From Alphaproteobacteria bacterium (GTDB lineage: Bacteria > Pseudomonadota > Alphaproteobacteria > Elsterales > Elsteraceae), in NCBI GenBank assembly GCA_013298565.1, contig JAAFIC010000023.1:1-40405 (forward strand): a DNA stretch of 40,405 nt, given 5' to 3'. Under the pieces are notes generated by a model, which made no database searches, was not told the DNA's origin, and saw only the letters and a program-made list of their open reading frames with translations. Every line of letters starts with the position of its first letter. Position 1 is the stretch's first letter. This document shows positions 3,797 to 34,612 of this stretch, in pieces. Position numbers and translations under genes: made by a program.

Positions 3797-4606
3797 ATCA
3801 AGCAGAACCCCAGAAGGATCGAAGAAAGGGAACGGCCCCGGATACTGGCCGATAGCGGCGCGATGGGACAGGAACCCCTGCCCAGTCCAGCGGTGCAGGT
3901 CAAAGCCGGGCGGCTCCATTGTAAAGCCGCTTTCGGCATCAGCGCGCAGGTCGAGCGTGACCTGATGCGCCGGGCTGGAGCAAGTGGAAACAATAGCGCG
4001 CCCCATTAGCGTGGTGATCGGGCGGTGCAGGTGCCCACAGATCACTCGGCATACCTGCGGGAATCGGTCGAGCAGCGCCGCGAATTCACCGGCCCCCGTC
4101 AGCCCAATGCGATCCATATGACCGATCCCGGTTTGGAAGGGCGGGTGGTGCATTGCAATCAGCGTTGGCCGGTCGCTCGCGCTCAGGACTTCTTCCAGCC
4201 ACGCCAGCCGCTCGTAACAAAGCTCGCCCCGGCTTTCCCCCGGCACCAGCGTATCCAGCCCGATCAGGCGCACTGGATACGCCTCGATAACCCAGTGCAA
4301 AAACCCAGTTTTGGGCATATAGGAATGGTCGGGGAAAGCCGCGCGCAGCGTGTCGCGGCCATCGTGGTTACCGGGTATAAGATACAGCGGCATCGGCAAC
4401 CGGTCCAGAAATGCGCGTAGGTGCCGATATTCCTCCGGCTCGCCGAAATCGACCAGATCACCCGTCACCATAACCAAATCCGGTACGGTTTTCAGCGCCA
4501 GGAGGCTGTCGATGCAGTCGGCCATAAAGCGGGCCGTATCGACCTTGCCATACGCGAGCTTGCCGGGGGTTTTAACGTGAAGGTCGGTGATTTGCGCGAT
4601 AAGCAT
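3794..4606 (-). CDS. Calcineurin-like metallophosphoesterase (class III PDE / GpdQ type)
   Basis: This is a cytoplasmic two-metal phosphodiesterase of the family that includes CpdA, GpdQ and Rv0805. The 270 residues show the complete metal-site set: D8 and H10 in ITDLH, D50 in VTGDLVD, N80 and H81 in PGNHD, MHHPPF in the middle, and the terminal GHLHRP. No signal peptide is present. Its start overlaps the stop of the upstream ABC ATPase by one base (TGATG), so it is translationally coupled to a transporter operon headed by a GlpR-type repressor. The context favours hydrolysis of an imported phosphodiester over cAMP turnover, but substrate cannot be read from sequence. Its stop codon coincides with the end of repeat A3. 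Confidence 0.88.
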   Translation of the reverse strand: MLIAQITDLHVKTPGKLAYGKVDTARFMADCIDSLLALKTVPDLVMVTGDLVDFGEPEEYRHLRAFLDRLPMPLYLIPGNHDGRDTLRAAFPDHSYMPKTGFLHWVIEAYPVRLIGLDTLVPGESRGELCYERLAWLEEVLSASDRPTLIAMHHPPFQTGIGHMDRIGLTGAGEFAALLDRFPQVCRVICGHLHRPITTLMGRAIVSTCSSPAHQVTLDLRADAESGFTMEPPGFDLHRWTGQGFLSHRAAIGQYPGPFPFFDPSGVLLD

Positions 4607-7399: not shown

Positions 7400-7577
7400 T
7401 AGAGCGTCTTGCGTAAAGGTTGACGCAAGACGCTCTAGTTTTATCTTAGCCCTCGCCGCCCGGTGCGTTTGACGCGCCAAGCGCATCGCCGGGCGCGTCC
7501 GCGCCCTTGGCCGCCGCCTCACCCGACACGCTTGATGCGGCTTATAGAGCCGCGCAGAGTTAAGGCGCGCGGCTCTA
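7400..7577 (+). repeat. Family B multi-hairpin repeat, copy B1
   Basis: Two terminal hairpins bracket a GC-rich core. The first is a perfect 15-bp stem (7400-7414 with 7423-7437). The last is an 11-bp stem (7545-7555 with 7567-7577). Between them lie TTAGCCCTCGCCG, a stem 7458-7463 with 7489-7494 holding the 27-nt cassette (7462-7488), and the core CCTTGGCCGCCGCCTCA. A second copy lies inverted at 34445-34612. Stem bases that differ between copies change in pairs. Confidence 0.85.
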
Positions 7578-25193: not shown

Positions 25194-26648
25194 TTACTTG
25201 AACTCAATCGGCTCTGGTTCGCTCTGATCAATGGGCGGAAGCTCGATCTGGATCGTACTGGGGTCGAACTTTGCGGCCCCGTGTACGGAATCCAGCACTA
25301 ACCCAGGCCAGAAGATCAAAATTCCGACCATGATGAGCTGGATCATCACGTAAGGCACTGCGCCCCAGTAAATTTGCTGGGTCGTGATCGGGGCCATGGT
25401 TTTGCCCGTTACCTTATCTTTATAGGCTTTGTCCGGCGCGACTGAGCGTAGGAAGAACAGGGCAAAACCGAACGGCGGATGCATGAACGAGGTTTGCATG
25501 TTCACGCCCAGCAGCACGCCGAACCAGATAAGATCAATCCCAAGCTTTTCTGCAACCGGGCCAACCAGCGGCACGAGAATGAAGGCAAGCTCGAAGAAAT
25601 CGAGGAAGAAGGCCAGAACGAAAAACAGAATGTTCACGGCAATCAGGAAGCCAGTTTGGCCGCCGGGAAGGCTAGTGAGCAAATGTTCTACCCACAAGTC
25701 GCCATTCACGCCCCGGAAAACGAGGCCGAAGACTGTAGAGCCGATGAGGATAAACATAACGAAGGATGAAAGTTTGGTCGTCGAGTCCATCGCCTGTTTT
25801 ACGAGGCTCCAGCTTAACTTCCGTTTCATCAGCGCAAGGATCATCGCCCCCGCAGCGCCCATGCCCCCGCCTTCGGTCGGCGTGGCAATGCCGAGGAAGA
25901 TGGTTCCTAAGACGAGGAAAATCAGCACTAACGGCGGTACTAGCGAAATCATCGCCCGGCTGAACAGTTGCATCCCGCGCAACGTGCGGGCTTCTCTCGG
26001 TAAAGCGGGAACGAAATCAGGCTTAATGATCGAAATTAGGAAGATAAAGCCCGCGTACATTGCTGCCAGCATTAGGCCGGGCAAAAACGCGCCTTCGTAC
26101 ATATCACCAACGGACTTACCCAACTGATCGGCCATGATAATCAACACGAGCGACGGCGGGATAATTTGCGCCAGCGTGCCCGAGGCCGCGATAACGCCCG
26201 AAGCAACCCGGCGGTCGTACCCATAACGCAGCATGATCGGCAGTGAAATCAAGCCCATCGAAATCACCGAGGCCGCCACCACGCCCGTCGTCGCCGCCAG
26301 CAGCGCGCCGACAAAGATAACGGCATAGGCAAGACCGCCGCGAATCGGCCCAAACAACTGCCCGATGGTATCGAGCAAATCCTCGGCCATGCCGGATCGC
26401 TCCAGCACCAACCCCATGAAGGTAAAGAAGGGAATGGCCAACAGGGTATCGTTGGTCATGATCCCGTAAACACGTTCCGGTAGGGCTTGCAGGAGTTGGA
26501 AGTTGATCAACCCCAGTTCAATCGCCAGCAAACCGAATAGTAGCCCATTGGCGCCCAGAGCAAATGCAACGGGGTAGCCGAGAAGCAGAAACAGAATGAG
26601 GCCGCCGAACATGAGCGGCGCCATGTTTTCAATCAGAAAATGTGTCAT
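25194..26648 (-). CDS. TRAP transporter large permease (DctM family)
   Basis: DctM proteins are the ion-coupled translocating subunit of TRAP importers. The 484-residue protein has about a dozen hydrophobic spans. Landmarks include FALGANGLLFGL, LAIPFFTFMGLVLERSGMAEDLLDT, GVVAASVISMGLISLPIMLRYGYDR, GVIAASGTLAQIIPPSLVLIIMAD and FGVLLGVNMQTSFMHPPFGFALFFLRSVAP. It is longer than the ~425-residue classical DctM, with extra sequence in the central loop and at the C-terminus, as in the large permeases that partner TakP-type binding proteins. It is the last gene of the P-Q-M operon, 24 bp after dctQ. Confidence 0.94.
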   Translation of the reverse strand: MTHFLIENMAPLMFGGLILFLLLGYPVAFALGANGLLFGLLAIELGLINFQLLQALPERVYGIMTNDTLLAIPFFTFMGLVLERSGMAEDLLDTIGQLFGPIRGGLAYAVIFVGALLAATTGVVAASVISMGLISLPIMLRYGYDRRVASGVIAASGTLAQIIPPSLVLIIMADQLGKSVGDMYEGAFLPGLMLAAMYAGFIFLISIIKPDFVPALPREARTLRGMQLFSRAMISLVPPLVLIFLVLGTIFLGIATPTEGGGMGAAGAMILALMKRKLSWSLVKQAMDSTTKLSSFVMFILIGSTVFGLVFRGVNGDLWVEHLLTSLPGGQTGFLIAVNILFFVLAFFLDFFELAFILVPLVGPVAEKLGIDLIWFGVLLGVNMQTSFMHPPFGFALFFLRSVAPDKAYKDKVTGKTMAPITTQQIYWGAVPYVMIQLIMVGILIFWPGLVLDSVHGAAKFDPSTIQIELPPIDQSEPEPIEFK

Positions 26649-26672: not shown

Positions 26673-27209
26673 TCAGTGGTGGCCACGTTTTTCGCCGGGA
26701 TCGGGGATCAAGCCTTGCAGGAAGGCAAATCGTTTGATCATTTCCGAAAGCCCCTGCAACGACAGGAGTGTGAACCCAATCGGGATCATCACTTTTGCCG
26801 GCCACCGGATCAAACCGCCAGCATTGCTCGACATTTCGCTATTGATGAAGGAACCCCATACCATTGGAAATGACATGTATAAAATCAGCACTGTTACCGG
26901 CAGTAAAAACACGAGCGTGCCGAAAATTTCAACCTTCGCACGCCCTTGCGGGGTTAAGCGCCCAGTAATCACGTCGATCCGAACATGTTCGTTCCGCAAT
27001 AGTGTGTAGCCAGCACCAGGCAGAAAAACAGCCGCAAACAAATACCATTGCAGCTCAAGCCACGCATTAGAGCTATCGTCGAACAAATAACGAATGAGTG
27101 CGTTCACCGTACACACGATGACCGCAACCAGCAGAAGCCATTTAACGGCCCCGCCAACGAATTCATTCAGCCGATCAATCAACCGACTGAGGTATAGTAA
27201 AGCTGCCAT
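26673..27209 (-). CDS. TRAP transporter small permease (DctQ family)
   Basis: This 178-residue membrane protein has four hydrophobic spans. The conserved beginning is FVGGAVKWLLLVAVIVCTVNALIRY, with SSNAWLELQWYLFAAVFLPGAGYTLLRNEHVRIDV as the family's central region. The ATG at 27209 has a GAGGGGGG ribosome site directly upstream; a GTG four codons earlier lies inside that purine run and is less likely. DctQ docks against DctM as a helper subunit. Confidence 0.92.
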   Translation of the reverse strand: MAALLYLSRLIDRLNEFVGGAVKWLLLVAVIVCTVNALIRYLFDDSSNAWLELQWYLFAAVFLPGAGYTLLRNEHVRIDVITGRLTPQGRAKVEIFGTLVFLLPVTVLILYMSFPMVWGSFINSEMSSNAGGLIRWPAKVMIPIGFTLLSLQGLSEMIKRFAFLQGLIPDPGEKRGHH

Positions 27210-27230
27210 AGCCCCCCTCACTTTTGTTTT

Positions 27231-27274: not shown

Positions 27275-28369
27275 CTACGGGGTACGCTGTGCGCCCGCCG
27301 CGAAGGTGAAGTTATCAAAGGTCGTTTCTGCGACGCGGAACCAAAAATACTGATCGTCGCGGAAAGCCCGCCAAGGTCCGTAAATCTTTTGCCACTTCGG
27401 ATTAGTTTTCGCCAGTTCGTCGTAAAGTTCGTAGGCGGCTTTGTGAGCGACCTGAAGAATCTCCCGCGAGAAGGGGCGAAGAACCGCGCCGGAGCCAACC
27501 AGACGTCTCAGTGCGACTGGGTTTTGGGCGTCGTATTTTGCCAACATGGCCACACTGGCTTCAAAACACGCCGCTTCCAGAATTGCCCGATAGTCCTTCG
27601 GGAGCGTTTCAAGTTGCTCGCGGTTCACGATAGCCGACAGATTCAACCCCCCTTCCCACCAACCGGGATAATAATAGTATTTTGCGACCTTGTAGAACCC
27701 TAGTTTCTCATCATCATAAGGACCGACCCACTCGGCGGCGTCAATTGTGCCTTTTTCCAGGGCCGGATAAATATCCCCACCGGGGATCTGTTGCGGCACC
27801 CCACCCAGTTTGGCGATCACCTGACCGGCCAACCCGCCGATCCGCATTTTCAAGCCAACGAGATCGGCAGGTGTTTTGATTTCTTTGCGATACCAGCCGC
27901 CCATTTGCGCCCCGGTTTGGCCTGCCGGGAAGCTGACGATATTGTAATCTTTCAGAAAATCACCCACCAACTGCATCCCGCCGCCCTGATACATCCAGGC
28001 AAGATGCTGGCGTGTGTTAAGGCCAAACGGAATAGTGGATTCAAAAGCGAAAGTCGGGTCTTTGCCAACGTAATAATACATAGCGGTATGGCCCATTTCG
28101 ACCGTACCCGCCTGAACTGCGTCCAAAACTTGCAAACCGGGCACAATTTCACCCGCAGCGAACACGCGAATTTGGAATTTGCCGTTGGTGGCGGCAGCAA
28201 CGCGCTTGGCGATGCTATCGGCCCCGCCGTAAATCGTATCGAGGCTCTTTGGAAAGCTCGACGCTAAACGCCATTTAATTTCCGGTTGGGATTGAGCGAT
28301 TGCGGGTGCGGCAATCGCAGTCGCAGCAGCGCCGATCCCGGCAGTTTTAAGAAACGCACGACGTTCCAT
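27275..28369 (-). CDS. takP: TRAP periplasmic binding protein, TakP-like (2-oxo acid)
   Basis: This is the secreted receptor of the TRAP importer. The ATG at 28369 has AGGGG six bases upstream and gives 364 residues. A Tat-type signal peptide starts MERRAFLKTAGIG and is cleaved near APAIAQ. The mature protein begins EIKWRLASSFPKSLDTIYGGA. It contains GAQMGGWYRKEIKTPADLVGLKMRIGG, VPQQIPGGDIYPALEKGTIDAAEWVGPYDDEKLGF and YYYYPGWWEGG. These strings recall Rhodobacter TakP, which binds pyruvate and other 2-oxo acids with a bound cation; I compared from memory. The arginine of KMRIGG is the usual carboxylate anchor of the family. Lactate or related monocarboxylates are alternatives. Its upstream region is shared with a divergent sensor kinase gene. 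Confidence 0.9.
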   Translation of the reverse strand: MERRAFLKTAGIGAAATAIAAPAIAQSQPEIKWRLASSFPKSLDTIYGGADSIAKRVAAATNGKFQIRVFAAGEIVPGLQVLDAVQAGTVEMGHTAMYYYVGKDPTFAFESTIPFGLNTRQHLAWMYQGGGMQLVGDFLKDYNIVSFPAGQTGAQMGGWYRKEIKTPADLVGLKMRIGGLAGQVIAKLGGVPQQIPGGDIYPALEKGTIDAAEWVGPYDDEKLGFYKVAKYYYYPGWWEGGLNLSAIVNREQLETLPKDYRAILEAACFEASVAMLAKYDAQNPVALRRLVGSGAVLRPFSREILQVAHKAAYELYDELAKTNPKWQKIYGPWRAFRDDQYFWFRVAETTFDNFTFAAGAQRTP

Positions 28370-28385
28370 AATCATCCCCTCAGCC

Positions 28386-28447
28386 TAGAGTAAATCCCGA
28401 GCGGGCAGAATCACCCGCAACAACGCATGTGCTAAAAAAACGGGAGT
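28386..28447 (+). repeat. Family A repeat, partial copy A6 upstream of takP
   Basis: TAGAGTAAATCCCGAGCGGG, the dyad GCGGG-cagaatca-CCCGC, then GCATGTGCTAAAAAAACGGG match family A up to the GAGTT before the terminal hairpin, which is absent. The TAG end lies 17 bases from the takP start, so the repeat occupies the 5' leader or core promoter of the TRAP operon. Confidence 0.75.
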
Positions 28448-28549
28448 TTGGGCAGGACGGGCAGGCGCGTTCGGTCTCGAACCGAGCTGCTAAGGCCCCC
28501 CCCTAATCGTCCGACAGTTTTTTTATAACGCTCTATCGGTTTGTTATGG

Positions 28550-28591
28550 CGAAGATAGGCTTCTCGCTTAAAAGCGGGAGAGCTACCTTCG
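28550..28591. promoter_or_regulatory. 42-bp near-palindrome before the sensor kinase gene
   Basis: Two 20-base arms (28550-28569, beginning CGAAGATAGG, and 28572-28591, ending CTACCTTCG) pair at 17 of 20 positions, counting two G-T pairs, around a 2-base centre. It ends 41 bases before the kinase GTG. It could be an operator dyad for a dimeric regulator of the divergent takP/kinase region or a leader hairpin. It is not followed by a T-run, so it is not a standard terminator. Confidence 0.55.
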
Positions 28592-28632
28592 TAGGGGGCA
28601 GACTCGTCGCTACATTTTAGGAGAAGCGTTGC

Positions 28633-31600
28633 GTGCAAGGCTGGGTGGTCATTGCGGTTTCGGCGGCCTATGTCGCCGCCCTGTTCGGCGTTGCTTGGTA
28701 TGGCGACCGGCAAGCGGCGCAGGGCCGCCCGCCCTTGCCGTTTTTGTGGCGCAGCGGCGTTTTTTTTGCGCTGACCTTAACGGTCTATAACACCACCTGG
28801 AGCTATTACGGCTCGGTGGGTCGGGCTTCGACGGGCGGGTTCGATTTTCTACCCATCTACATCGGCCCCACGGTGGCGCTGTTGCTGGGGCACCGGATGT
28901 TGCGAAAGGCGATTACGGTCGTCAAAGCGCAGAACATTACCTCTATCGCCGATTTTCTGGCGGGCCGTTACGGCAAAAGTCAGGGCTTGGCCGCCCTGGT
29001 TACGCTCACGGCTCTTATTAGCCTGCTGCCGTATATCGCCCTGCAACTGAAGGCGCTGGGCAGTAGTTTCGATGGGTTAACGGGGCAGGCAGGCTCAAGG
29101 TCCGATCCGATTTGGTCGGATACCGCTTTCGCCGTGACCGTGGCGATGGCGGCATTTTCCATTTTGTTCGGCGTGCGCCATATTCACGCCAAAGAGCATC
29201 ATCGCGGCCTGATGCTGGCGATTGTATTCGAGGGGATTGTGAAGCTCGCAGCGTTTATTGCCGTTGGCGTTTTTATTATGTTGGGGTTGCCGGAAGGCCC
29301 CGTGGAACTCTTCCAGATTGCCGCCCGTCAGCCTGAGCTTGCCCGGCTGCTCGATCCTGATTTTCTGGCCCCCACTTGGTTTAGCAATAGTCTGATTGCT
29401 TTTTTCGCGTTCTTTTGTATGCCGCATAAGTTCCATGTACTCATGGTGGAGAACGAAGATAGCCGCCACTTGCGCCCCGCCGCGCTCATTTTCCCAGCGT
29501 ATCTGCTCATCTTCTCGCTCTTTATTGTGCCCATTGCCCTATCGGGGCTGATGCTGGTGGGGCAGGGTACGCTGAACCCCGATACGTTCGTGCTGGCGCT
29601 GCCGCTGCGTTTAGGCTCGCCGGAAATAGCCCTGCTTGCTTTTATCGGGGGGCTGTCGGCAGGGACGGGGATGGTGATTATGAGCGTCGTCGCCCTCAGC
29701 ACGATGGTCTGCAACGATGTGGTGATGCCGCTATTGCTGCGGCGGGCGTCGTTCCGGCAGGGGCGAGATTTAACCCGCGTGCTGCTGCTCATCCGCCGCG
29801 CGGCTATTGTTGCGATTTTGCTGCTGGCTTTTCTCACGTATCGGCTGATCGGCGAGAATTACGCGCTGACCACGATTGGCTTGATGTCCTTCGTTGCCGT
29901 CGCTCAGTTCGGCCCGGCGTTTTTAGGTGCGCTCTATTGGCGACGGGCGACGCGGGCGGGTGCCGTGGCCGGGATCGTCGGGGGTTTGCTGGTGTGGGCC
30001 TATACGCTGCTGCTGCCCGCGATTGTGCTGCTGCGTTACGCCGATTTGAGTTTTCTGCAAACGGGGCCGTGGGGAATAGAGTTTCTGTCGGCCCACGCCC
30101 TGTTCGGCCTTGGGGAGTTGGACGCGATTTCCCACGCGACCTTTTGGAGCCTAACGATCAATTGTGTGCTTTACAGTCTCGTGTCGCGGCTCACCCGCCC
30201 GTCCGTGGTGGAGCAGGCTCAGGCGAAAGCCTATGTGGAGGCAGCGCCGCACTCAGAACCGCTGCGGCCCCGCATCTGGTCCATCCTCACACGGCTTGCC
30301 GATTTACGAGCGATTGCGACGCGCTATTTGGGCGAGGAGGCAGGGGGCGAGGCGTTTGATCGTTTCATCGCCGCGCGCTACCCGCAAGCCGAACCCTTCT
30401 ACCGCGAGGGTGTGGCCGATCTCGAAGCCGTGCGCTTTACCGAACATTTGTTAGCGGGCGCTATCGGTTCGGCCTCGGCGCGCGTGGTGATGGCGGCGTC
30501 GGTGAAGCGGCGCAGCCTGTCGCGCGGCGATGCGCGCTTAATGCTCGATCAAGCCTCGGCAGTCATCGGCAGTCAGGCCGACCTGTTGCGCGGCACGATT
30601 GATAGCGTGCGCCAGGGCATTTGTGTGCTCGATGCCGATTTGACCTTACTGGTCTGGAACAAGCGTTTCATCGACCTGCTGGATTTTCCGCCAACCCTCG
30701 TGCGCGTCGGCGTGCCGATGGCGGAACTGGTGCGCTTCAATACGGCGCGGCGGGATTATGCGGCGGGGGATATCGATGCGCTGCTGGTCAATCGGTTCGA
30801 TGATATTACCGACTGGCCCTATCGGCACGAACGCCGCCGCCCCGATGGCACCGTGATCGAACTGCTGACCGATCTCATGCCCGGCGGCGGTTATGTAACG
30901 ACCTATACCGACATTACCGAGCGGCACTTGGCGGCAGCGCGGTTGCAAGAAACCAATGAAAGCCTGGAAGCGCGCGTGCGCGACCGTACCGAAGCGCTGC
31001 AAGCCGCCAAGGCCGAAGCCGAGCGGGCGAATTCCAGCAAAACCAGCTTTCTGGCTGCCGCCAGCCACGATCTAATGCAGCCGCTGAATGCGGCGCGGCT
31101 GTTCACTACGGCCTTGGGCGAGCGTTTGGCCGAGGGGAATGCGGCATCGGCTCAGGATATGGTTCAGCATATCGGCGCGTCACTTCAGTCGGTCGAACAT
31201 TTGCTGTCGGCATTGCTCGATATTTCGGCATTGGAAGCAGGCGCGATGCGGGCGCAGAAGCGCGATTTTGCCCTAGGGCCAGTGCTGGCAAGGCTGGCGC
31301 TGGAGGTTGAGACGCTGGCGGCTGACCGTCCCGCCCATCGCTCGCTCCGGGTGCGCGCGGTGCCAACCTTAGCACGGGTGCAGACCGACCCGGATTTGCT
31401 GCGCCGGATCGTGCAAAACTTCCTCACCAATGCCGTGCGCTACACACCGCGCGGCACAGTGCTGCTGGGGTGCCGCAATCAGGGCGATGCCGTTCGCATA
31501 GAGGTGTGGGATACGGGCATCGGCATTCCCGAAGAGCGCCAGCAGGAGATTTTTCAAGAGTTCCGCCGCCTCGCCCCGAATGCCGATGAGGGGCCGGCAG

Positions 31601-32154
31601 GGCTTGGTCTTGGCCTCGCCATCGTCGAGCGCATCGCGCGCGGGCTGGATCATGTGATTGACGTGCGCTCTGTGCCGGGGCGCGGCTCCTGCTTTGCCGT
31701 TACCGTGCCGCGCGCCGTTATGCTATCGCCGCCGCCTGTGCTTCCGGCAACCCCGCTGCCGCCTACCCGGCCTAGTTTATCGGTTTTGTGTATCGATAAT
31801 GATACTACCATTCTTGCCGGAATGCGGGCGTTACTCGAAGGATGGGGGTGCGTGGTTCGCACGGCAGCAACGCCATCGGAGGCGCGCGCGCTGTTGGCGG
31901 AGCATCGGCCTGCGTTAGTGATCGCCGATTATCACCTAGAGGCGGAGGTGGACGGGTTGACCTTGCTCGAAACTCTTTCGCCCGGCACCGCCCCCCCGAT
32001 CGCGCGGATGTTGCTAACGGCAGATCGGTCGCCTGCGGTGCGGTCGCGGGCGGTCGCCGCCAATATCCAGCTTTTGTATAAACCCTTGCGCCCGGCGGCG
32101 TTGCGAAGTTATCTCAATGTCCTGGCTACTCAAGCGGAGGTTGATACCCGGTGA
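28633..32154 (+). CDS. Hybrid sensor kinase with Na+/solute-symporter domain (CrbS/MxtR-like)
   Basis: This 1173-residue membrane sensor begins with an SLC5/SSS symporter-like module of about 13 spans (VYNTTWSYYGSVGRAS, ITSIADFLAGRYGKSQGLAA, LSAGTGMVIMSVVALSTMVCNDVVMPLLLR). A linker of the STAC type follows. A PAS domain (DSVRQGICVLDADLTLLVWNKRF) leads to a histidine kinase with H812 in AASHDLMQPLNAARLF and ATP motifs NAVRYTP, DTGIGIPEE and GLGLGLAIV. The receiver domain has CIDND, D1099 in VIADYHLE and KPLRP. The start is GTG at 28633 with AGGAG about nine bases before it. CrbS/MxtR kinases of this build control acetate use via acs. It overlaps its regulator gene and is divergent from takP. 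Confidence 0.92.
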   Translation: MQGWVVIAVSAAYVAALFGVAWYGDRQAAQGRPPLPFLWRSGVFFALTLTVYNTTWSYYGSVGRASTGGFDFLPIYIGPTVALLLGHRMLRKAITVVKAQNITSIADFLAGRYGKSQGLAALVTLTALISLLPYIALQLKALGSSFDGLTGQAGSRSDPIWSDTAFAVTVAMAAFSILFGVRHIHAKEHHRGLMLAIVFEGIVKLAAFIAVGVFIMLGLPEGPVELFQIAARQPELARLLDPDFLAPTWFSNSLIAFFAFFCMPHKFHVLMVENEDSRHLRPAALIFPAYLLIFSLFIVPIALSGLMLVGQGTLNPDTFVLALPLRLGSPEIALLAFIGGLSAGTGMVIMSVVALSTMVCNDVVMPLLLRRASFRQGRDLTRVLLLIRRAAIVAILLLAFLTYRLIGENYALTTIGLMSFVAVAQFGPAFLGALYWRRATRAGAVAGIVGGLLVWAYTLLLPAIVLLRYADLSFLQTGPWGIEFLSAHALFGLGELDAISHATFWSLTINCVLYSLVSRLTRPSVVEQAQAKAYVEAAPHSEPLRPRIWSILTRLADLRAIATRYLGEEAGGEAFDRFIAARYPQAEPFYREGVADLEAVRFTEHLLAGAIGSASARVVMAASVKRRSLSRGDARLMLDQASAVIGSQADLLRGTIDSVRQGICVLDADLTLLVWNKRFIDLLDFPPTLVRVGVPMAELVRFNTARRDYAAGDIDALLVNRFDDITDWPYRHERRRPDGTVIELLTDLMPGGGYVTTYTDITERHLAAARLQETNESLEARVRDRTEALQAAKAEAERANSSKTSFLAAASHDLMQPLNAARLFTTALGERLAEGNAASAQDMVQHIGASLQSVEHLLSALLDISALEAGAMRAQKRDFALGPVLARLALEVETLAADRPAHRSLRVRAVPTLARVQTDPDLLRRIVQNFLTNAVRYTPRGTVLLGCRNQGDAVRIEVWDTGIGIPEERQQEIFQEFRRLAPNADEGPAGLGLGLAIVERIARGLDHVIDVRSVPGRGSCFAVTVPRAVMLSPPPVLPATPLPPTRPSLSVLCIDNDTTILAGMRALLEGWGCVVRTAATPSEARALLAEHRPALVIADYHLEAEVDGLTLLETLSPGTAPPIARMLLTADRSPAVRSRAVAANIQLLYKPLRPAALRSYLNVLATQAEVDTR

Positions 32155-32795
32155 CACCCCGTTTCCTGATTGCCGACGATCACCCGCTGGTGCGCGCCGC
32201 CCTCAGCGAAACCTTGCGCCGTCGCTGGCCCGACGCCGAGTTGCTGGAAGCAGCGGATTTCGACAGCGTTATGGCGCGTCTCGCCCCTGCCGACCCGTTG
32301 CAGGCCGATGCGGAGGTGGATTTGGTGCTGCTCGATCTTACCATGCCGGGCAGTCATGGGTTAATGGGGTTGATGCTGCTGCGCGCCCACGCGCCGACCG
32401 TGCCGGTGGCGGTAGTCTCGGCGCAGGAAGATGCCGATACAGTGCGCCGGGCGATGGCGTTTGGGGCCGCTGCGTTCATCCCCAAATCGGCCTCGGTTGA
32501 GGCGTTGCAAGAAACGATTGCGGCGTTGTTGCGTGGCGACCTTCCCCCCGCTGGCCCTGTTGCACCGAACGCAGAAACCGATGACCGCGACCTGTATCAG
32601 CGCCTCGCCAGTCTCTCGCCCCAGCAGTTGCGCGTGTTGGCGATGATTGGGGAGGGTAAGCTCAACAAGCAAATTTGTTTTGAGCTTGGGATTGCCGAAC
32701 AGACGGTAAAGGCCCACGCCAGTCAGATTTTCCGCAAGCTCGGCGTGGTCAGCCGAACCCAGGCGGCACTGATTATGAACCGCCTCGGAGCCTAA
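32151..32795 (+). CDS. LuxR/NarL-type response regulator (CrbR/ErdR-like)
   Basis: This 214-residue DNA-binding regulator is the presumptive target of the upstream kinase; its GTG overlaps the kinase stop (GTGA). The receiver shows IADDHPLVRAAL, D62 in LVLLDLTMPG, and the K of FIPKSAS. The C-terminal LuxR helix-turn-helix is clear (LSPQQLRVLAMIGEGKLNKQICFELGIAEQTVKAHASQIFRKLGV). Regulators paired with SSS-type kinases activate acetyl-CoA synthetase and related carbon-use genes in gammaproteobacteria. Here the neighbouring TakP-type importer is an attractive additional target. Confidence 0.92.
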   Translation: MTPRFLIADDHPLVRAALSETLRRRWPDAELLEAADFDSVMARLAPADPLQADAEVDLVLLDLTMPGSHGLMGLMLLRAHAPTVPVAVVSAQEDADTVRRAMAFGAAAFIPKSASVEALQETIAALLRGDLPPAGPVAPNAETDDRDLYQRLASLSPQQLRVLAMIGEGKLNKQICFELGIAEQTVKAHASQIFRKLGVVSRTQAALIMNRLGA

Positions 32796-34444: not shown

Positions 34445-34612
34445 TAGAACCGCGCGCCTTAAATCTGGCGCGGTTCTAGAAGCCGCCTCAGGCGTATTTG
34501 ACACGCCAAGCGTATCGTGTGAGGCGGCGGCCAAGGGCGCGGATGCGCCCGCCCGGCGAGGGCTAAAATAAAGCTAGAGGATCGTGCGTCATAGTTGACG
34601 CACGATCCTCTA
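34445..34612 (-). repeat. Family B multi-hairpin repeat, copy B2 (inverted relative to B1)
   Basis: On the minus strand it starts with a perfect 17-bp hairpin (34612-34596 with 34591-34575), continues through TTTTAGCCCTCGCCG and CCTTGGCCGCCGCCTCA, and ends with a 12-bp hairpin (34479-34468 with 34455-34444). The 27-nt cassette occupies 34491-34517 at the tip of the stem 34482-34490/34520-34528, a place where copy B1 has no cassette. The first three bases supply the stop codon TAG of the chemoreceptor gene. It fills nearly all of the gap to mlaD. Confidence 0.85.

Follow-up and report, generated by a model that had tools for sequence, protein, structure and literature searches.

The window, a stretch of 40,405 nucleotides, comes from a genome of the genus Elstera (G000) and contains a takP-dctQ-dctM operon for a TRAP importer on the minus strand, back to back with genes for a hybrid sensor kinase and a LuxR-type response regulator on the plus strand (Table 1). 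On sequence grounds the two-component pair is of the RpuS/RpuR type, associated with pyruvate, and not of the CrbS/CrbR type, associated with acetate. We consider it probable that this pair acts on takPQM, and perhaps on rpuSR too, through a candidate box in the gap between the operons (28583-28599), and that it does so on pyruvate. RpuS, with its putative SLC5-like sensor domain, would most likely report on pyruvate, or else on a related 2-oxo acid, and would phosphorylate RpuR. RpuR would bind the 17-bp candidate box and activate takP-dctQ-dctM, and the TakP receptor would capture 2-oxo acids. Its own operon, which starts 33 bp from the box, may be a further target of RpuR. If this reading is right, a two-component system known from rhizobia extends to Elstera and the Azospirillum family, and the inducer expected at this locus shifts from acetate to pyruvate.

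Table 1. Features of the takPQM-rpuSR locus and of the gap between its operons, in window coordinates.
Feature	Position	Strand	Remark
dctM, large TRAP permease	25194-26648	-	Pfam DctM, E 1.8e-100
dctQ, small TRAP permease	26673-27221	-	Pfam DctQ, E 2.3e-19
takP, 2-oxo-acid-type TRAP solute receptor	27275-28375	-	PDB 2hzk, E 1e-140
Copy of dispersed repeat 'A6', insertion in takP leader	28384-28450 (ends approximate)		missing from G001 and E. litoralis (alignment)
42-bp imperfect dyad	28550-28591		not conserved as a dyad
Invariant 12-mer GAAGATAGGCTT of the three Elstera species	28551-28562		alignment
29-bp run shared unchanged by the three Elstera species	28571-28599		longest invariant run of the alignment
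Proposed RpuR box CTACCTTCGTAGGGGGC, 17 bp	28583-28599		core palindrome 28583-28594
rpuS-type hybrid sensor kinase	28633-32154	+	putative SLC5-like membrane domain, PAS, HisKA, ATPase, receiver
rpuR-type NarL/LuxR-family response regulator	32151-32795	+	4-bp overlap with the kinase gene
Copies of the repeat core AGAGYAAATCCCGAGCG	1136, 3668, 3779, 7297, 25078, 28387

The gene coordinates bear out the divergent layout described in the earlier note, with a shared region of exactly 257 bp (28376-28632). The locus was compared with those of two relatives, G001 and Elstera litoralis (G002, contig NZ_LAJY01000363.1). G001 has the same gene order, and the short contig of E. litoralis, which holds the end of dctQ, takP and most of the kinase gene, agrees with it. 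The kinase and regulator genes overlap on the same strand and are predicted to form an operon, as expected of an RpuS/RpuR pair. Translation of takP may start at the ATG at 28375 or at an alternative ATG at 28369 (ATGGAACG), the latter being common to the relatives. A scan of the gap for sigma-70-type promoters and terminators recognised none. Elsewhere in the window a 45-nt inverted repeat, 93% complementary, has its arms at 7490-7534 and 34507-34551, 27 kb apart.

The importer is of the TakP type, as had been proposed. The closest match of the receptor among solved structures is TakP of Rhodobacter sphaeroides (Table 1), and the receptor gene is accompanied by those for DctQ and DctM permeases. 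Residues of TakP named as contacts of pyruvate and the cation include Tyr99, Tyr100, Gln156, Arg177, Glu214, Trp215 and Glu240 (PMC1839085). The takP product of Elstera keeps all seven of these named residues, as counted by hand in the alignment. The likeness to the R. sphaeroides protein lies in the nearest solved structure and in the ligand contacts; control of TakP by an RpuS/R pair is not met with in the passages of PMC1839085 consulted.

The pair is assigned to the RpuS/RpuR type because the kinase groups with RpuS of S. fredii NGR234 at a support of 100/100. In a tree of 43 rows, whose root is for drawing only, the clade concerned comprises 14 rows, namely three from Elstera, one from Indioceanicola, NGR234 RpuS and nine of Azospirillum type. 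The description of the pair as CrbS/CrbR-like in the earlier note therefore named the wrong sub-family. Outside this clade are some kinases whose genes adjoin acs, citrate synthase or an acetate symporter; rows of this kind include G020 (beside acs), Acinetobacter (beside an annotated acetate symporter) and G059 (beside a symporter read as ActP). A second Azospirillum-type group also falls outside, and in two of its annotated members the regulator gene is convergent. In the regulator tree the ten RpuR-side rows are grouped at 95/94, with long branches flagged among the others. The recognition helix of all ten RpuR-side regulators contains EQT, which is found in none of the 13 others. The sensor domain of the window kinase aligns with positions 13-406 of the 406 in the SSF profile (PF00474) at an E of 0.0018, a weak match that falls under the curated cut-off; in the same search NGR234 RpuS and the Acinetobacter kinase had no SSF match.

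RpuS/RpuR of S. fredii NGR234 serves as the reference for this type. Among the plasmid matches listed (the best 40 of 67 and 30 of 141 records) the pNGR234b kinase is 51% identical over 99% of the length, and the NGR234 regulator is 52% identical to that of Elstera. Upstream of the pNGR234b pair are a DUF3311 gene and a gene for an SSF-family symporter, matching the description of rpuSR-mctP in PMC9100948. According to that account RpuS is required for optimal growth on pyruvate, the rpuS mutant still used acetate and the deletion of rpuS clearly affected one operon (PMC9100948). The mctP promoter is described there as containing a direct repeat at positions -80 to -43 relative to a start site that precedes the first codon by about 100 bp; when an AGTAG in the second of its copies was altered, about 40% of the activity was left (PMC9100948). 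In our NGR234 locus (L167) the mctP promoter contains GAGCGAAAGTAGGGGGGC at 3918 and GAGCGAAAGTAGGGAGGC at 3940, 22 bp apart. These copies stand 141-180 bp before the GTG at 4098, and the figures given in PMC9100948 place the published repeat at about 143-180 bp. By their position and the AGTAG word we take the two copies as the RpuR-dependent repeat published for mctP.

The proposed box is found at the end of the longest run that is invariant in the three Elstera species (Table 1). The first and last four bases of its core, CTACCTTCGTAG, are inverted repeats, and all three Elstera genomes have a single exact copy of this core, located in this gap in every case. The word GTAGGG is common to the Elstera box and both copies in the NGR234 mctP promoter, the Elstera copy (GTAGGGGGC) lacking one G of the first NGR234 copy. 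The takP promoter of Indioceanicola carries GCCCCCTACCAACGTAT, and the region upstream of the A. thermophilum kinase carries GCCCCCTACCTTGGTTC. The Elstera and NGR234 systems are alike in having kinase and regulator on one strand and a GTAGGG element in the known or proposed target promoter (for NGR234, PMC9100948). They are also alike in their apparently narrow reach, to judge from the one operon affected in NGR234, according to the same source, and the one exact core site per genome in Elstera. The element itself differs, in that NGR234 has two direct copies whereas Elstera has a single conserved copy in the opposite orientation relative to the importer. The box lies 213, 151 and 156 bp from the start of takP in the three Elstera species and 33-34 bp from the start of the kinase gene (33 bp in the window). 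The spacing to takP is near that in Indioceanicola (127 bp) and in NGR234, which favours takP as the main target of RpuR. A degenerate site facing takP, CTATCTTCG, is present on the minus strand at 28550-28558.

The pattern CCCCCTACNWWSGYW was written from the same four loci that it then finds (Elstera, Indioceanicola takP, the A. thermophilum kinase and NGR234); the first NGR234 copy fits it and the second is one mismatch off. In 14 genomes or records it has nine matches, of which seven lie before rpuS, takP or mctP (G058 included) and two lie inside long ORFs, compared with six matches for the reversed pattern in the same set. Six of the 14 contain no match. The fresh tests of the pattern are G058 and the loci of a scan of 30 kinase upstream regions only, and these loci are interrelated and do not represent independent events. 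In that scan G058 was positive, and the exact pattern was present at 14 of the 21 RpuS-like loci from the Azospirillum family (54-57% identity), or at 13 of 18 without the three (A. thermophilum, A. ramasamyi and Indioceanicola) that had been encountered before as plasmids. It was present at none of the eight loci with 47-50% identity; the clade of most scanned loci was taken from identity, six of the 21 and six of the eight being themselves in the kinase tree (L204 is L168 there). The seven RpuS-like loci without the box before the kinase include A. ramasamyi, Indioceanicola (L204), where the box is at takP instead, and L198, which has a near copy. A. ramasamyi and Pararhizobium sp. A13 have pairs of this type, and no box within one mismatch was found in the 15-19 kb around them.

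Among 37 kinase loci the exact sequence GCCCCCTAC is found at five of the eight in the RpuS clade and at none of the 29 others. The exact box was also found before none of the takP genes at 35 loci away from such a pair. Fifteen Azospirillum-type genomes were scanned with mismatches allowed. Eleven of these have one site of 0-1 mismatch, at the kinase, three have no site and one has a two-mismatch match alone; two-mismatch matches number eight in these genomes, against 41 for the reversed pattern. A second TakP-like gene, 73% identical (C52:21366-22448, L089, in the window genome), is present in all three Elstera genomes, and exact GCCCCCTAC was not found in the 400 bp upstream of this gene.

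The association of importer and pair is found in two genera with differing layouts. Among the plasmid matches listed is an Indioceanicola locus in which takPQM adjoins an RpuS/RpuR-type pair convergently, with the box before takP. The earlier suggestion that the pair regulates the adjacent importer is thus probably correct, given the order kept in the Elstera relatives, the RpuR-like element between the two operons and this second linkage. We found no earlier report of a TRAP importer tied to an RpuS/RpuR-type pair in a search of open-licence literature.

The linkage is rare across the class. In a survey of 385 alphaproteobacterial genomes (threshold E 1e-140, with up to two candidates for the kinase and five for takP scored per genome) the kinase was found in 57, takP in 39 and both in 21 genomes. 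The two are adjacent in two of these 21, G000 and G001, where adjacency was read from coordinates and several of the assemblies are fragmented. This rarity is one of the points that speak for a different reading, in which the box serves the regulator's own operon only and the TRAP genes, although adjacent, are not tied to the pair by regulation. Such pure autoregulation is also suggested by the frequency of the box before the kinase in RpuS-like loci of the Azospirillum family. No TRAP operon was seen beside three annotated Azospirillum pairs, and two of these have the box before the kinase (the third has no box), an arrangement that fits autoregulation. Expression of rpuR in S. fredii was down 3.34-fold in the rpuS deletion, which would fit autoregulation but may be an effect of the deletion itself (PMC9100948). 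However, it is the importer operon that the box precedes in NGR234 and Indioceanicola, where the 400 bp upstream of the kinase gene yielded no copy. The 33-34 bp between box and kinase start in Elstera, set against 151-213 bp to takP, and the linkage of importer and pair in two genera also argue against a role in the regulator's own operon only. We regard this alternative as unlikely, and prefer the reading in which RpuR acts on takPQM.

If RpuR does act on takPQM, the importer under its control differs between lineages. NGR234 has the SLC5 symporter MctP, together with a DUF3311 protein, in this place, and Elstera would have a TRAP system. MctP was matched in none of the 12 Elstera, Indioceanicola and Azospirillum-type genomes searched, the window genome included (E 1e-5), and its own record was matched as a control. 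The mctP linkage of rhizobial RpuS/RpuR is thus not seen in Elstera, which has the TRAP operon instead; this is a matter of linkage and not a property of the pair itself. Our best reading is that the SLC5 importer of rhizobia has been replaced in Elstera by a TRAP importer. We lean slightly towards a more general view, that regulator and box form a portable module for pyruvate uptake in which the importer is exchanged (MctP in rhizobia, TakPQM in Elstera and Indioceanicola) and the same operator stands before either. A single regulatory module would then serve two unrelated transporter families, RpuR would have a compact candidate binding box in several genera, and a regulator could be proposed for the TakP-type 2-oxo-acid TRAP importer.

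The gap also contains the 42-bp near-palindrome to which the earlier note had drawn attention. Its existence was confirmed: 15 of 21 positions pair, which is equalled by one in 1000 dinucleotide shuffles of the gap, and six further 42-mers within the window score as high. It is not a conserved unit, since the corresponding sequence of the two other Elstera species has 11 and 13 paired positions out of 21. It was conceivable that the dyad is a site for another regulator or forms an RNA hairpin in the kinase leader, and the rarity of such pairing in shuffles, the RNA fold z of the region in the window (-2.57, also -2.90) and the largely conserved outer arms are in keeping with this. In the relatives, however, z is only -0.52 and -1.05, and the three-species alignment reveals an invariant right arm with an inner left arm (28563-28570) that is changed in both. 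A function of the dyad as such is very improbable, and the dyad was rejected as an operator on its lack of conserved pairing and folding in the two relatives. The stretch put forward earlier for a gel shift (28550-28591) takes in no more than 9 bp of the conserved box, which is 17 bp long.

The other element noted in the gap, a copy of the A6 repeat near takP, is indeed present but without a counterpart in either relative. Of the three species compared, the window species alone has this insertion, which measures about 65 bp. The core of this dispersed repeat occurs six times within 40 kb, with copies on both strands, against 0.23 expected.

The CrbS/CrbR (MxtR/ErdR) acetate system is alike in consisting of a hybrid kinase and a LuxR-type regulator of one family, and its motif core, TAC-N4-GTA/GTC, resembles the Elstera core (PMC5715377). 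It differs in occupying a separate part of the kinase tree, in the EQT helix that is missing in the 13 other regulators compared, and in its targets, which are acs and actP (PMC5715377). The idea that this acetate switch has been extended to an oxo-acid importer, as the earlier note proposed, has the shared family and domain plan of RpuS and CrbS and the similarity of the core TACNNNNGTA to ACTU motif instances (PMC5715377) in its favour, but is very improbable, because kinase and regulator group with RpuS/RpuR, because acs, acetate symporter or citrate synthase neighbours some kinases outside that clade, and because no convincing ACTU-like site was found upstream of acs in the three Elstera species. 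The acetate switch was therefore rejected on the two trees and the acs upstream scores. These scores, out of 13, come from a scheme of our own built from a list of published motif instances. The best were 11 in the window genome and 12 in both G001 and E. litoralis; the two matches of 12 are alike, lie more than 420 bp from acs, and the same score was reached by 240 of 1000 shuffles.

ACTU-like sites were observed at other loci. They occur upstream of nine of the 36 kinase loci scored, three of them from Elstera, compared with 3.4% of mononucleotide shuffles. Upstream sites of this kind belong to six kinases outside the RpuS clade (L007, L092, L101, L104, L107 and L108). The ACTU motif has been described for Gammaproteobacteria; in G020, an alphaproteobacterium in which the pair adjoins acs, the region upstream of acs (L058) contains the ACTU-like site TAGACCTTCGTCGA.
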